This document shows, in pieces, positions 53,826-61,649 of a stretch of 64,000 nt of DNA. The position numbers and the translations under genes were made by a program. This stretch comes from Lachnospiraceae bacterium. Lineage in GTDB: Bacteria; Bacillota; Clostridia; Lachnospirales; Lachnospiraceae. Position 1 is the stretch's first letter; each line of letters begins with the position of its first letter. The stretch spans positions 1 through 64,000 of the forward strand of contig JAILRC010000016.1 of NCBI GenBank assembly GCA_024698485.1. Reading direction: 5' to 3'. The notes under the pieces were generated by a model. It had not been told where the DNA came from. It ran no database searches and saw only the letters and a program-made list of their open reading frames with translations.

Positions 53826-53972
53826 ATGATCGATTACGATGAAGAAGTAAAAAAATTTCAGCCGAGCCTTGAAATAGAGGAAGCTGAAGAGACCATCATA
53901 CACAATGATATGACGGACATTGCCGACGTCATAGAGAAGCTTACGGGGCCTAAGGGGGGCAGAAAGCAGTGA
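53826..53972 (+). CDS. 48-aa acidic small protein, translationally coupled to the next gene
   Basis: ATG 53826 to TGA 53972: MIDYDEEVKKFQPSLEIEEAEETIIHNDMTDIADVIEKLTGPKGGRKQ. Stop overlaps the next GTG (GTGA). Confidence 0.6.
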   Translation: MIDYDEEVKKFQPSLEIEEAEETIIHNDMTDIADVIEKLTGPKGGRKQ

Positions 53973-55162
53973 ATTGTCCGAGATGCGGTTACAAGATCGT
54001 CGGACATCACCGCAGATGCGAAAATTGCGGTCAGGACCTGAGGCCCTATGAAGGCATCAGAAAACTGTCCAACAGGCTGTACAACGAGGGACTGGCCCTG
54101 GCAAGAGTCAGGAACCTTTCCGGAGCCTGCGACAAACTGAAAAGAAGCCTGGAATACAACAAAGAGAACATCGAAGCCAGAAATCTCCTGGGTCTTGTCT
54201 ATTACGAGATGGGGGAGACGGTGGCGGCCATCGTCGAATGGGTCATCAGTACCAACATCTCAAAAAATGACAACCCTGCGGACGGCCTTCTGGAAAAAGT
54301 TCAGGGGGATGCCAATGAATTCCGGGAAGTGAAGTCGGCGATCAAAAAATTCAATATAGCTCTGGATATGGCGAAGAACGGAAATGACGATCTCGCCGTA
54401 CTGCAGCTTAAAAAGGTTGTAGATCTGAACGACCACTACGTAAAAGCCCTTCTTTTGCTGGCGCTTTTACAGATAAAGCACGGGGATTACGAATCCGCCA
54501 GAAAACACCTGAAGAGAGTGCTGAGGGTGGATGTGGGTAACCTTGATGCCAGAAGATACATAGCGGAACTTCGGTCGCTGATGGCAGACAAGGGCAGAAG
54601 CCCGGTGCCTGAAGAAAAACCGGGGAAGGAAGCCGGAAAGGAAGGAGCTTTCGGTATATCACCGGGAACTCCTTACAAAGAAGACAAGCCCAACATTGCG
54701 GCCATTGTCATGTTCATTCTCGGCATCCTTATAGGAGTCTTCGTTTTCCAGTTCTTTGCGGTACACGGCATCAGGGAAAAACTGATGGCGGAAAACACGG
54801 AAGAAGCCAGGAGGATGGGAAGTCAGATCACAGAGCTTTCCGCCCAGGTTTCGACTCTTGAGAGTGACAAGAGCCTGCTGGAGGGCAAGATCCGTGATCT
54901 GAACAGCGAACTGCTGATCCTCAAGGCACGGAATGCCGTTGACTATGAGGAGTTTCTGGGCATATGCCTGGAGTACGATAAATTGAGACCTAAGATCGAA
55001 GCGGCGGGAGAGAAACTGCCGGAGGATCTTAAGGAAGCAACTACGGCTCTGTACAAGAGGCTGATGGAATTTGACATTTCAAAGGCGGAAGCATCGGAAG
55101 CCGTTTGCGGGATCTATGAAGAAATGAAGACGTATATTTCCGGTCATATACAGATCCAATAA
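53969..55162 (+). CDS. Zinc-ribbon, TPR, single-TM protein
   Basis: NCPRCGYKIVGHHRRCENCGQDL; TPR-like helices; TM IAAIVMFILGILIGVFVFQFF; coiled coil. Confidence 0.75.
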   Translation: MNCPRCGYKIVGHHRRCENCGQDLRPYEGIRKLSNRLYNEGLALARVRNLSGACDKLKRSLEYNKENIEARNLLGLVYYEMGETVAAIVEWVISTNISKNDNPADGLLEKVQGDANEFREVKSAIKKFNIALDMAKNGNDDLAVLQLKKVVDLNDHYVKALLLLALLQIKHGDYESARKHLKRVLRVDVGNLDARRYIAELRSLMADKGRSPVPEEKPGKEAGKEGAFGISPGTPYKEDKPNIAAIVMFILGILIGVFVFQFFAVHGIREKLMAENTEEARRMGSQITELSAQVSTLESDKSLLEGKIRDLNSELLILKARNAVDYEEFLGICLEYDKLRPKIEAAGEKLPEDLKEATTALYKRLMEFDISKAEASEAVCGIYEEMKTYISGHIQIQ

Positions 55163-56056: not shown

Positions 56057-56857
56057 ATGAAGGATTCGGGTAAAGGGCCCACGCCCTTTGAACGTGAGGT
56101 CAGAAAAAGAAGATTAATAGTAGAGATACTGATCTTGGTTTTTTTGGTACTGATTGGTATAATGGTTAACGGGCTGGTCAATACAGCCATTGAAGCCGCA
56201 AGATATGCCAAGATGACACCCACGCCCACACTCACACCCTATGTCCGGGTTACAAGGACACCCACTCCTACGGTCACTCTCACGCCCACACCGGGTCCGG
56301 TTGTAATGATAGATCCCGGACACGGCGGTAATGATGTGGGGGCCGGTCCCGAAGTAAATGCGGATGTTTATGAGAAGATCATCACTCTTTCCATAGGAAT
56401 GAAGGTCTGTCAAAAACTTCAGGATCTGGGATTCACCGTGATCATGACAAGAGAGGATGATTCCTATGTTTCCCTTAAGGACAGACGGGAATCTTACAAT
56501 GCTTCCGAAGCCGAGGCTTTCGTCAGCATCCATCTGGATGCCTTTGACGGGGACAACAAGGCATCGGGATGCACGGTACATTATTGCAAGGGCAGGAACG
56601 AAAACAGTCCATTCCTTGCGGAATGCCTTGTGAACGGGATATGTGATTCCACGGGAGCAAGGAACAGAGGCGTCAAGAACTCCGATTACGAGGTGCTGTT
56701 GTCGCCGAAGCCTTCGGTTTTGATCGAATGCGGGTTTATGAGTTCGGAAAACGAATATCCTTTGCTCAAGGATGAGGGCTATCAGGAACTGATCGCTCAG
56801 GGAATTGCCGATGGCCTGGTAAAATTTTTTAAGAAAATGAATGGAGCAGATCGATAG
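56057..56857 (+). CDS. N-acetylmuramoyl-L-alanine amidase (Amidase_3) with TM and TP linker
   Basis: VMIDPGHGGNDVGA, SIHLDAF, LIECGFMSSENEYPLL. Confidence 0.92.
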   Translation: MKDSGKGPTPFEREVRKRRLIVEILILVFLVLIGIMVNGLVNTAIEAARYAKMTPTPTLTPYVRVTRTPTPTVTLTPTPGPVVMIDPGHGGNDVGAGPEVNADVYEKIITLSIGMKVCQKLQDLGFTVIMTREDDSYVSLKDRRESYNASEAEAFVSIHLDAFDGDNKASGCTVHYCKGRNENSPFLAECLVNGICDSTGARNRGVKNSDYEVLLSPKPSVLIECGFMSSENEYPLLKDEGYQELIAQGIADGLVKFFKKMNGADR

Positions 56858-56858
56858 A

Positions 56859-59606
56859 ATGGATAATGAAAAAATAGGGGCAGGAAAAGCCATCCCTGCC
56901 GGCTTTGCCGCTTATACCGTAACGGGTATAGTAAACGGTTTCTTACCTCTTCTGATCGCGGTATTGGCAAAGAACATGGCCTTTGGTCTGATGTCATTGG
57001 GTTTTATGGCTCTTGCCTATTTCGGCATCAGATGTGCGGGACATTTCTTTTCGGGAAAAGTTGCCCGGATCATCGGATACAAGATCACCATCATCATAGG
57101 TCTTATAATAAGTGCTTTCGGATCGCTGGCTCTGGGATTGTTCCCGGATCTTATGGGCTTGAAAGCGGGAATATGGCTTGGACTTTTGCTTTGCGGCACA
57201 GGAGCGGGGCTGGTAACGGTTCCCGTGGGAAACGCCTTGAGATGGTATTCGGGAGAAGATGACAGAACGGTTAAATGTCTGCATTTCTTTAACCTGGGAG
57301 GACAGTGCATTGCAATGATACTCAGTGTTCTTGTCCTGACAGCGGCGGGAGATGCCGCATGGAGAGTGCTCGCAGCCATATTTGCGGTGCTCCCCGTCAT
57401 GTGCGCCATGCTCTTCATCTTCATATTCTTTGAAGATCCCGACACCGACGAAGAACCGTCGGATCTTCAAAACCTTTTCGGCAATAGTGCATTTTGGGTT
57501 GTTTTTCTCTTAATGCTTTTTGCAGGTGCCACAGAACAGTCCATGGGACATTGGATAGCTTACTTTTCGGATGTTCCTCTGGAAGCTTCGGGCATTGCGG
57601 GACGCCTTTTGGGACCGAGCCTTTTCGCTGTGGGTCTCATGGTGTCACGGTTACTTTATATTCAGTTTCCTGAGAGATTCAGGCTTCAGCGTTTCGTCGT
57701 TTACGGCGCATTCCTTGCTCTGGCGGCGTTCCTTCTGGCGATTCTTTCGGGGAATGAGGGTTTGGCCCTTGCAGGATGTATCCTGGTGGGTTTTGCCACA
57801 GGATTCATGAGACAGGGGATGTTCTCACTGGCTTCTTCCAAAATCTCCGATATGGAAACGGCAACCTTCGGATTGCTCATGCTTGCCGGAGACTTGGGTT
57901 ACGGAGTAGGACCTGCACTGGTCGGGACAGTGTCGGGGATTTTAGACAACAATCTTAAGAAAGGAATGATCATTGCGTTAATTTTCCCGATCGCGATGAT
58001 AGTCACCATCATGAAGGTAAACAAGAATTTGACCCATAAGTTGATCAGAGACAAGAGGACCTGGATCGGAATAGCTTGTACAGCCCTTGTTATCGTATTG
58101 TCAACCTTTACAAGCGGATGCACAACGGCAGTAAATACACCTACGCCCACACCCACGCAGATCGTGTACAACTCCCCCGTTCCCGTACAGACACTTCCTG
58201 CTGAAACGGCTACTCCTACCGCAACACCCACTCCTGAGACGCCTGTTGCGACCGCAACACCCACGCCTACAAGAAAGCCTACGGTAGCACCTACAAATAC
58301 ACCCACACCCACTCCTACGGGAATCCCGGGAGTTACAATTACACCTCGCACAGGTACTGTGGTTGTTACTGTTGATGAAGGTTCTTCCTTACATGTAAGA
58401 GCACTTCCCGACAGATCGGGAAGCAGCATCGGTGGTGCAAAGAACGGTGAAGAATTCCAGCTGACCGGTGAAACCTCCAACGGCTGGTGGCAGATCAGCT
58501 TCAACGGACAGGTAGCTTACATCAGCCAGAGTTATTCAAAGATCAAGGGAAGCTCGGGAAGTGTAACACCAACTCCCACAAGGTCAGCTGCTACTTCTAC
58601 TCCCACACCCACACCTACATCGGGGACGACAGTCAAAGTAACTCCCACTCCTACACCCAGAGCTACCGCAACACCCACTCTTCCTCCCGCAGCCGGCACA
58701 ACTTTTGAGAATTACGTAAACTTTAAAGGAAGAGCATATATCGTTATGGATGCAAAGACCACCGAGATCCTTCACGCATACAACGAGACGGATCAGTTGA
58801 GCCCGGCATCCCTCACAAAGATGATGACAGCATTGATCGCTGTGGATCAGTATTATCTTACGGATATCTGCCCGATGCCTGTAGAGGCACTTCGCTGGAA
58901 CGACGTTCTTTTCAACGGAAAAGTTAACGCAGGTCTGGACAACGAGATGTCCACTTTTGCAATCTTTGCAAATTCCACTGCCGGAAAGAAGACAGTGGAT
59001 CAGAAGTTCACCGCAGAACAGTGGGCAGCAGCCGAGTACACCGTAGAGGAAAGACTCTATCAGCTCCTCATGTCCAGCTGTGCAGATGCGGGCGAAGCAC
59101 TTGCATTCATGTATCAGGAAGATCTTACCTGCTTTGCAGAGGAACTCATGGCAGCAAAGGCTGAGCAGTTGGGACTCATCTCCACCAGCTTCAACAATGC
59201 GGTAGGTGCTGACAAGACCTGCGGCGCTCAGTTTGACGGTAACCTTTCATCAGCTCAGGATCTTGCTATGATCGCCAGAGAGATCATGGAAAACGACGAA
59301 TATTACATCCTCAGACAGATCGTAGGCACATCCACCTACACCATTCCCGCAAGAGGTGACATTCCTGCGGTAACACTTACCAACGGAAACAAGCTCTTGA
59401 CCGATTCTTCATACAAGAGCAACAACTTCACCTGCATCGGTATCAAGACAGGTTACACCGGTGACGCAGGTTACTGCCTGGCAGCATGCGGTAAGGATGT
59501 TGACGGTAACGAAGTGATCGTTGTTACCCTGGGCGAGCCCGGCAGAGCTGACAGTTTTGAACAGACAATGAAGATGCTGGATTATGTCTTCAGATATGAA
59601 AAATAG
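56859..59606 (+). CDS. Fusion: MFS-like permease + TP linker + SH3b + TP linker + S11 D-alanyl-D-alanine carboxypeptidase
   Basis: Uninterrupted ORF: 12 TM-like N-terminus, SLHVRALPDRSGSSIGGAKNGEEFQL SH3b, then SPASLTKMMTAL (SxxK) and GIKTGYTGDAGYCL (KTG). Confidence 0.85.
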   Translation: MDNEKIGAGKAIPAGFAAYTVTGIVNGFLPLLIAVLAKNMAFGLMSLGFMALAYFGIRCAGHFFSGKVARIIGYKITIIIGLIISAFGSLALGLFPDLMGLKAGIWLGLLLCGTGAGLVTVPVGNALRWYSGEDDRTVKCLHFFNLGGQCIAMILSVLVLTAAGDAAWRVLAAIFAVLPVMCAMLFIFIFFEDPDTDEEPSDLQNLFGNSAFWVVFLLMLFAGATEQSMGHWIAYFSDVPLEASGIAGRLLGPSLFAVGLMVSRLLYIQFPERFRLQRFVVYGAFLALAAFLLAILSGNEGLALAGCILVGFATGFMRQGMFSLASSKISDMETATFGLLMLAGDLGYGVGPALVGTVSGILDNNLKKGMIIALIFPIAMIVTIMKVNKNLTHKLIRDKRTWIGIACTALVIVLSTFTSGCTTAVNTPTPTPTQIVYNSPVPVQTLPAETATPTATPTPETPVATATPTPTRKPTVAPTNTPTPTPTGIPGVTITPRTGTVVVTVDEGSSLHVRALPDRSGSSIGGAKNGEEFQLTGETSNGWWQISFNGQVAYISQSYSKIKGSSGSVTPTPTRSAATSTPTPTPTSGTTVKVTPTPTPRATATPTLPPAAGTTFENYVNFKGRAYIVMDAKTTEILHAYNETDQLSPASLTKMMTALIAVDQYYLTDICPMPVEALRWNDVLFNGKVNAGLDNEMSTFAIFANSTAGKKTVDQKFTAEQWAAAEYTVEERLYQLLMSSCADAGEALAFMYQEDLTCFAEELMAAKAEQLGLISTSFNNAVGADKTCGAQFDGNLSSAQDLAMIAREIMENDEYYILRQIVGTSTYTIPARGDIPAVTLTNGNKLLTDSSYKSNNFTCIGIKTGYTGDAGYCLAACGKDVDGNEVIVVTLGEPGRADSFEQTMKMLDYVFRYEK

Positions 59607-59705: not shown

Positions 59706-61649
59706 ATGGAACAATACAACGGCAGTCAGATAGTGGTTCTCGAAGGACTCGAGGCAGTGAGAAAACGCCCGGGCATGTACATCGGAAGTACGGGCTCCAG
59801 AGGACTTCACCATCTGATCTGGGAAATTCTTGACAACGGAATAGACGAGCATCTGGCAGGTTTCTGCAACAGGATCGATATCACACTCCGGAAGGACGGA
59901 GGCATTACCATAGCCGACTTCGGTCGAGGCGTACCTGTGGACATCCATCCTACCAAGGGGATCCCCACGGTCAGGGTAGTCTACACCATCCTTCATGCCG
60001 GCGGTAAGTTTTCCAATTCCGTTTACAAAGTGTCCGGAGGTCTCCACGGCGTGGGTGCTTCGGTTGTAAACGCCCTTTCCAAGCATATGATAGTCGAGGT
60101 GCGCAGGGAAGGAAAGGTGTTCAGGGATGAATATGTGGACGGAGGTCATCCTGTGGTTGCCCTGGAAAAAGGACTTCTTCCCGTTGTGGGTAAATGCGCC
60201 AAATCCGAAACAGGCACCAAGGTCACCTTCTACCCCGATGAGACCATCTTCGAGACGGTGGAATTCAAGCCTGAGATCATTGCAAAACATTTAAAAGAAT
60301 CCGCATTTTTGAACAAGGGTCTCATCCTGAACTTTAAGGACGAGATAAATAAGACAGAGGTCACTTTCTGCGAGGAAGAGGGCATCAAGAGCTACGTGAA
60401 CTACCTCACAAAAGCAGCGGAAAGAGACAACGAGGGCTATAAGACCCTGATCCCCGAGCCCGTATACATCGAGGGCGTCAGCGGGGACATTGACGTGGAG
60501 GTGGCTTTCACCTACACCAATTCCTACTCGGAGCAGATCAATGCCTACTGTAACCGTATCAATGTTGTGGACGGAGGTACCCTGGTCACGGGCTTCAAAT
60601 CCGCTCTTACGGGTGTAATGAACAAATATGCCAGAGAGTTGGGCATATTAAAGGATAAAGACGAAAACTTCGACGGCAAGGACATCAGAAACGGTATCGT
60701 TGCCATCGTTTCCATCAAACATCCGGATCCACAGTTCGAAGGTCAGACCAAGACGAAACTGGGAAATACAGATGCCAAGCAGGCTGTGGACGATGTGTTC
60801 TCGGCCGAAGTTACAAGATACTTTGACAAGAACATCGAAGAGCTCAGGAGCATTCTTGAAAATTCGATGAAATCATATAATGCGAGAAAAGCGGGGGACA
60901 AGGCAAGAAACGCCGTTTTGAAGCAGTTAAGCGATGTGGACACCAGAAGCAAGCTGGCAAGCTGTTCGTCCAAAAAGGCTGAAGAGTGCGAGATCTACAT
61001 CGTAGAGGGTGATTCCGCCGGTGGTACCGTAAAGACCGCAAGAAACAGAAAGACCCAGGCTGTGCTCCCTCTCCGCGGTAAGATCCTTAACGTGGAGAAA
61101 GCCCGTCTCGAGAACATTCTCACCAACAACGAGATCAAGACCATGATCGCGGCTTTCGGCTGCGGCATAGGCGATGAATTCGACATTACAAAGCTCAGAT
61201 ATGACAAGATCATCATCCTTACGGATGCCGATGTGGACGGTGCCCACATCTCCACCCTGATGCTGACCTTCTTCTACAGATTCATGCCCGAACTCATCAT
61301 GGAGGGCAAGGTCTACAGAGGAATGCCCCCTCTTTACAAGGTGGATTACGAGACATCCAAAAAGAAGGGTAAAGAGTCCAGGTATCTCTTTAATGATTTC
61401 GAACTTGAGAAATTCCGCAAGGAAGGACACAAGATCCTGAATCTCCAGAGATACAAAGGTCTTGGTGAAATGGATGCGGATCAGCTCTGGGAGACCACAC
61501 TGGATCCCGAAAGACGCGTGCTGGCACAGGTTTCCATTTCCGATACGGTGGAAGCGGACGAAGTGACCACCTTGCTCATGAGCTCCAACGTACCTCCCAG
61601 ACGTGAGTTCATCATGACGGAAGCAAAGTACGCCACCCTTGATGTATAA
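59706..61649 (+). CDS. parE: Type IIA topoisomerase subunit B (ParE-like; GyrB not excluded)
   Basis: RKRPGMYIGSTG, LHGVGASVVNALS, EGDSAGGTVKTARNRKTQAVLPLRGKILNVE, LQRYKGLGEMDADQLWETTLDP. Confidence 0.75.
   Translation: MEQYNGSQIVVLEGLEAVRKRPGMYIGSTGSRGLHHLIWEILDNGIDEHLAGFCNRIDITLRKDGGITIADFGRGVPVDIHPTKGIPTVRVVYTILHAGGKFSNSVYKVSGGLHGVGASVVNALSKHMIVEVRREGKVFRDEYVDGGHPVVALEKGLLPVVGKCAKSETGTKVTFYPDETIFETVEFKPEIIAKHLKESAFLNKGLILNFKDEINKTEVTFCEEEGIKSYVNYLTKAAERDNEGYKTLIPEPVYIEGVSGDIDVEVAFTYTNSYSEQINAYCNRINVVDGGTLVTGFKSALTGVMNKYARELGILKDKDENFDGKDIRNGIVAIVSIKHPDPQFEGQTKTKLGNTDAKQAVDDVFSAEVTRYFDKNIEELRSILENSMKSYNARKAGDKARNAVLKQLSDVDTRSKLASCSSKKAEECEIYIVEGDSAGGTVKTARNRKTQAVLPLRGKILNVEKARLENILTNNEIKTMIAAFGCGIGDEFDITKLRYDKIIILTDADVDGAHISTLMLTFFYRFMPELIMEGKVYRGMPPLYKVDYETSKKKGKESRYLFNDFELEKFRKEGHKILNLQRYKGLGEMDADQLWETTLDPERRVLAQVSISDTVEADEVTTLLMSSNVPPRREFIMTEAKYATLDV

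Follow-up and report, generated by a model that had tools for sequence, protein, structure and literature searches.

A single open frame (56841-59606, forward strand) of the window, by which we mean the whole stretch of 64,000 nucleotides that was analysed, encodes an MFS permease of 12 helices with a 13th helix behind it, then an SH3b domain and a Peptidase_S11 domain, each preceded by a Thr-Pro linker. The fusion is found in all seven analysed genomes of one rumen Lachnospiraceae genus. The best explanation that we can offer, to which we give a probability of about 50%, is that a permease gene and a lipoprotein gene were fused in the ancestor of this genus, that helix 13 exports the wall module and that Lgt and Lsp process the chain at Cys427.

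The fusion gene and its parts

The features of the gene and of its two flanking genes are given below; residues of the protein are numbered from the ATG at 56841.

56057..56857, +: N-acetylmuramoyl-L-alanine amidase gene (Amidase_3, Pfam 148.7 bits), product TM-anchored, with a Thr-Pro linker and no Cys after the TM segment
56841..59606, +: MFS-SH3b-S11 fusion gene, likely start at 56859 (giving 915 aa)
56901..58025, +: MFS permease domain, residues 21-395, 12 predicted helices (Pfam MFS_1 66.7 bits, hydropathy, AlphaFold, stand-alone relatives ending near 395)
58020..58061, +: basic stretch NKNLTHKLIRDKRT, predicted cytoplasmic, between helices 12 and 13, resembling the n-region of a signal peptide (5 Lys/Arg in the loop)
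58062..58118, +: 13th helix WIGIACTALVIVLSTFTSG, resembling a lipoprotein signal peptide (hydropathy; PROSITE PS51257-type match in five of seven species)
58119..58121, +: codon of the invariant Cys427, directly after helix 13, candidate site of lipidation and cleavage
58122..58370, +: Thr-Pro linker 1, whose length varies between species
58383..58538, +: SH3b domain (SH3_3, Pfam 41.3 bits)
58551..58694, +: Thr-Pro linker 2 (28-61 aa in relatives)
58701..59597, +: Peptidase_S11-type domain, residues 621-919 (Pfam 102.1 bits; phmmer; structure search with a low-confidence model)
58809..58820, +: SxxK motif, SLTK, residues 657-660 (each of the six complete sequences has SLTK or SLSK)
58866..59033, +: insert separating the second motif from SxxK, about residues 676-731 (alignment with S11 domains of other genomes; shorter in G004)
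59076..59084, +: second motif, SCA (the six complete sequences all have SxA, most of the S11 domains compared have SxN)
59445..59453, +: KTG motif, residues 869-871 (KTG in all six complete sequences)
59706..61649, +: ParE/GyrB-type topoisomerase subunit gene, downstream neighbour in the genus

The frame runs without interruption over 921 codons from its first ATG. Met7 (56859) is invariant in five species and a TAA precedes it in G001 and G002, so that 56859 seems a likelier start than 56841; it is also the start chosen by the first-pass annotation, which a model had made from the letters and their open reading frames. That annotation had seen one continuous frame through an MFS-like permease, an extra TM segment, linkers, an SH3b domain and an S11 domain, and both the open frame and Pfam bear this out: MFS_1 (PF07690) matches residues 21-358 (gathering score 33.4), SH3_3 matches residues 515-566 and Peptidase_S11 matches residues 728-899 (gathering score 27.6), all three above their gathering cut-offs.

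Hydropathy gives twelve peaks before residue 395 (helices up to residue 393), as in the 12-helix MFS fold, and a 13th helix at 409-427. The AlphaFold model of the permease resembles the MFS structures NorA, FucP and MdfA (TMt 0.65-0.83). By fold, the closest solved structures are a varied set (NorA, FucP, VMAT2). The stand-alone MFS relatives form a broad family and their gene neighbours differ; no substrate can be deduced from neighbours or fold. Three stand-alone relatives from Clostridia/Oscillospiraceae (L050, L051 and L056) lie between apparent aroC and pheA genes, in operons of aromatic amino-acid biosynthesis, a possible hint to the substrate of the MFS family.

The fusion in the genus and beyond

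Six of the seven sequences of the genus are complete and without a stop. The five complete relatives (G001, G002, G003, G004 and G006) are uninterrupted and 40-60% identical to the window protein; taken by half, identity to the window is 35-52% for the MFS half and 41-66% for the S11 half. The last sequence, from G005 (34% identical), remains fused past helix 13 as far as the Thr-Pro linker, in which its contig ends. Four members of the genus are the rumen Lachnospiraceae MAGs RUI274, Tb.RUG.499, Tb.RUG.54 and RGIG3528, found independently in a named collection; the rumen origin of the genus members is read from isolate names.

Two separate genes, a stop near 58010-58060 or a frameshift at the locus, any of which the first-pass annotation would have held against a genuine fusion, occur in no sequence of the genus. 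The chance that an error of assembly or sequencing joined two adjacent genes is practically negligible. It is true that the named relatives are metagenome assemblies and that the contig of G005 breaks within the linker, but independent assemblies of six further species share the junction, down to about 35-40% identity, and the chance loss of a stop at the same place in each species is not credible. Hence, we rejected this explanation.

MFS relatives at E <= 1e-36 occur in 162 of 397 genomes of the family. Of the listed matches from other genera, nearly all stop aligning at residues 390-415 or so and lie in open frames of about 400 aa, and an order-wide sample of about 390 genomes gives the same picture, with MFS relatives as separate genes of about 400 residues among the matches listed. 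No fusion outside the genus appears among the matches listed in these 397 family genomes and about 390 order genomes; both sets are even samples, and rare fusions elsewhere are possible. Our search of the open-access literature found no description of an MFS-S11 fusion. This fits the remark, already made in the first-pass annotation, that S11 enzymes do not usually occur joined to polytopic transporters. The gene combines a known permease family with known SH3b and S11 domains in an architecture seen nowhere else here.

The upstream amidase gene and the downstream ParE-type gene are kept beside the fusion in the genus wherever a contig reaches that far. The amidase gene ends at 56857, so that the fusion gene does lie directly after it, as had been noted at first pass. 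The two nearest genera by ParE (G015, 83%, and G017, 79%) have different genes upstream of parE, and for this reason the locus appears to be genus-specific; no ancestral split pair was found at this locus in other genera, which carry a different gene upstream of parE. A GDPD-family gene precedes the amidase gene, and these two upstream genes suggest an envelope-maintenance cluster. Upstream of the GDPD gene, the window encodes a protein with a zinc ribbon, TPR, a TM segment and a coiled stretch (53969-55162). G004 has two tandem amidase copies upstream of the fusion (L013 4248-5657).

The S11 domain

The best PDB matches of the S11 domain are S11 structures (phmmer, 4k91, E=3.9e-14), and S11 structures are still the first match of the AlphaFold model, although this model, built with five sequences, has a mean pLDDT of 54 and is not good enough for an assessment of the active site. 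SxxK and KTG are kept. In the second motif, the Ser of the SxN typical of Peptidase family S11 is kept and its Asn is lost in all six complete sequences; L033, another of the S11 domains compared, has SAG there. The titles of PDB entries name the mutants S96A and C98N of the K15 DD-transpeptidase, which suggests that an S11 enzyme can carry a Cys at the third position of this motif. As K15 apparently has a Cys there, Asn may not be a strict requirement of the family. With SxA in place of SxN and with the long insert before it, carboxypeptidase activity is not to be assumed: we call the domain S11-type, and it may be active, altered or a binder.

The junction between helix 12 and the Thr-Pro linker

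All seven species have the layout of a lipoprotein signal peptide at the junction, that is a basic n-region, a hydrophobic h-region and a terminal Cys. Helix 13 itself is only 21-73% identical between species (21-26% in two divergent ones), while Cys427 is invariant in seven of seven; it is the sole invariant Cys within the first 430 residues and, with Trp408, one of the only two invariant positions of helix 13. In the AlphaFold model, residues 405-424 form a helix, at low confidence. The lipobox is loose: the PROSITE PS51257-type pattern fits five of the seven species, Lys or Arg stands at -2 in G004 and G005, and five species have Thr or Phe at -3, unlike a classic lipobox. The first-pass annotation had described a further TM segment here. 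A 13th hydrophobic helix is indeed present, but it is better read as a signal peptide of lipoprotein type, with a Cys at its end and the Thr-Pro linker soon after. Since the signal-like segment is not at the N-terminus (it comes after twelve helices, with no conserved internal start), we do not class the fusion as an ordinary lipoprotein.

We infer that the chain, entering the membrane from a cytoplasmic N-terminus, is back in the cytoplasm after the twelve helices of the permease, that helix 13 goes outward and that SH3b and S11 lie on the wall side. The S11 domain is placed outside because the number of helices is even and because five Lys/Arg lie between helices 12 and 13.

Proteins built in a similar way are encoded in the same genome. 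One of them (L005 478-2172) has a lipoprotein-like signal peptide ending in ...TTGC, a TP linker, SH3_3 and DUF6273. Another, L002, has ...LTEGC, a TP linker and SH3_3, hence a similarly loose site in a stand-alone protein, the lipidation of which is only predicted. A third, L008, has ...SAGC, a TP linker and an M14 carboxypeptidase domain. L002 and L005 have the same order of parts as the second half of the fusion, beginning with the basic n-region and ending with the C-terminal domain, and L008 is similar; each of the three begins with a Met of its own, whereas the lipoprotein-like unit of the fusion follows the 12-helix permease in frame. The simplest reading of this likeness is that the second half would be such a lipoprotein, fused in frame, together with its signal peptide, to a permease gene.

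A proposed lipoprotein capture, cut or uncut

We propose the following course of events. A stand-alone MFS gene and a lipoprotein gene following it would have become one frame in the ancestor of the genus, which has been kept since. The donor lipoprotein would have consisted of a signal peptide, the Cys, a Thr-Pro linker, SH3b, a linker and the S11 domain. The basic stretch and the hydrophobic segment of the old signal peptide would now form the 13th, outward helix and carry SH3b and S11 to the wall side. There, SH3b would attach to wall material, and stem peptides would be acted on or bound by the S11 domain, next to the amidase encoded just upstream. Lgt would lipidate Cys427, Lsp would then cut before it, and one chain would yield permease and lipoprotein at 1:1. 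If Cys427 is processed like that of a lipoprotein, then the permease and S11 halves do not stay joined. Lgt is present in all seven genomes of the genus and Lsp in five, the two genomes without Lsp being about 80% complete. The amidase next door, which also has a TM segment and a TP linker, has no corresponding Cys. Judged from the sequences, lipidation and cutting at Cys427 have roughly an even chance, a little better than that of a 13-helix protein left uncut. That the product would be a bacterial polyprotein, in which Lgt and then Lsp recognise an internal signal peptide behind helix 12 and separate the halves, thus fixing both their ratio and their birthplace in the membrane, is a more tentative proposal, to which we give somewhat less than an even chance. 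In the open-access literature we found no description of an internal lipoprotein signal peptide, nor of one that functions after 12 helices.

Translation could also begin inside the gene, near 58011-58040, and yield the S11 half separately, as a normal lipoprotein in addition to the fusion. Codons 374-396, before helix 13, have a pairwise codon identity of 0.86 in four species against a mean of 0.47 for the gene; the peak (residues 361-402) is reached by none of 5000 shuffles within the gene, and a TTG at 58029 would yield a plausible lipoprotein precursor in G000. But this TTG is replaced by CTT, CTG or TTA in relatives, the ATG at 58011 is absent in G004 and G005, none of the possible starts preceded by a Shine-Dalgarno sequence is conserved, promoter-like matches do not surpass those of shuffles, and 4 of 18 comparable genes of the window have higher peaks of codon conservation. 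An internal promoter or translation start was therefore rejected, and we consider the separate product improbable. The conserved stretch (57921-58046) is single-copy, other genes of the window have peaks too, some at gene starts, and a search of Rfam gave one weak match only, inside parE.

A far stronger contender, at somewhat less than even odds, is a 13-helix protein that stays whole. The permease would then anchor SH3b and S11 outside, selection would act on the closeness of transport or ligand sensing to wall trimming, and Cys427 would be a relic or structural. The frame is fused in all seven species, the lipobox is weak in G004 and G005, and the length of helix 13 suffices to cross the membrane. 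One can object that Cys427 and Trp408 are all that is invariant in helix 13, and that the Thr-Pro linkers vary in length, so that rigid coupling is not apparent. For its part, the captured lipoprotein cut at Cys427 must face the facts that a Cys at the end of a helix could be kept for another reason, and that a fusion kept in all species could equally mean selection on physical joining.

Whichever holds, a transporter and a wall enzyme are united throughout a genus. The first-pass annotation had supposed that transport of a muropeptide or D-Ala product, or drug sensing, could be coupled to wall trimming; such a coupling may exist, but nothing found here speaks positively for it. If Lsp cuts, a lipoprotein signal peptide can work away from the N-terminus; this would have consequences for the prediction of lipoproteins and for the targets of globomycin-type inhibitors, and the junction would be new in its mechanism. 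If the protein stays whole, an MFS protein with an outer SH3b domain and a penicillin-binding-type domain would be a new tie of transport or sensing to the wall.

Comparison with known systems

The stand-alone MFS permeases of Lachnospiraceae (about 400 aa, 30-35% identical) belong to the same MFS_1 family and align over residues 15-395 or so; among the matches listed, none covers helix 13 and the outer domains. With the S11 D,D-carboxypeptidases (DacB of B. subtilis, 3mfd; PBP5 of P. aeruginosa, 4k91; the Streptomyces K15 DD-transpeptidase) the fusion shares the Peptidase_S11 profile, SxxK and KTG, and enzymes of family S11 are extracytoplasmic, as is predicted for its S11 domain. Unlike in these enzymes, this domain sits behind an MFS permease, has SxA for SxN, with a long insert separating this motif from SxxK, and lacks a C-terminal PBP5-like domain or tail anchor.

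For the proposed cut, the nearest precedent that we found is LtaS of Staphylococcus aureus, a polytopic synthase whose outer catalytic domain is cut off by SpsB (PMC10865820). The two proteins are of unrelated families. In both, a polytopic part is followed by an outer enzyme domain, the site of signal-peptidase type at the junction being only predicted in the fusion. SpsB is a type I peptidase and the domain of LtaS is released (PMC10865820), whereas the site predicted in the fusion is of type II and would leave the S11 half on a lipid anchor.
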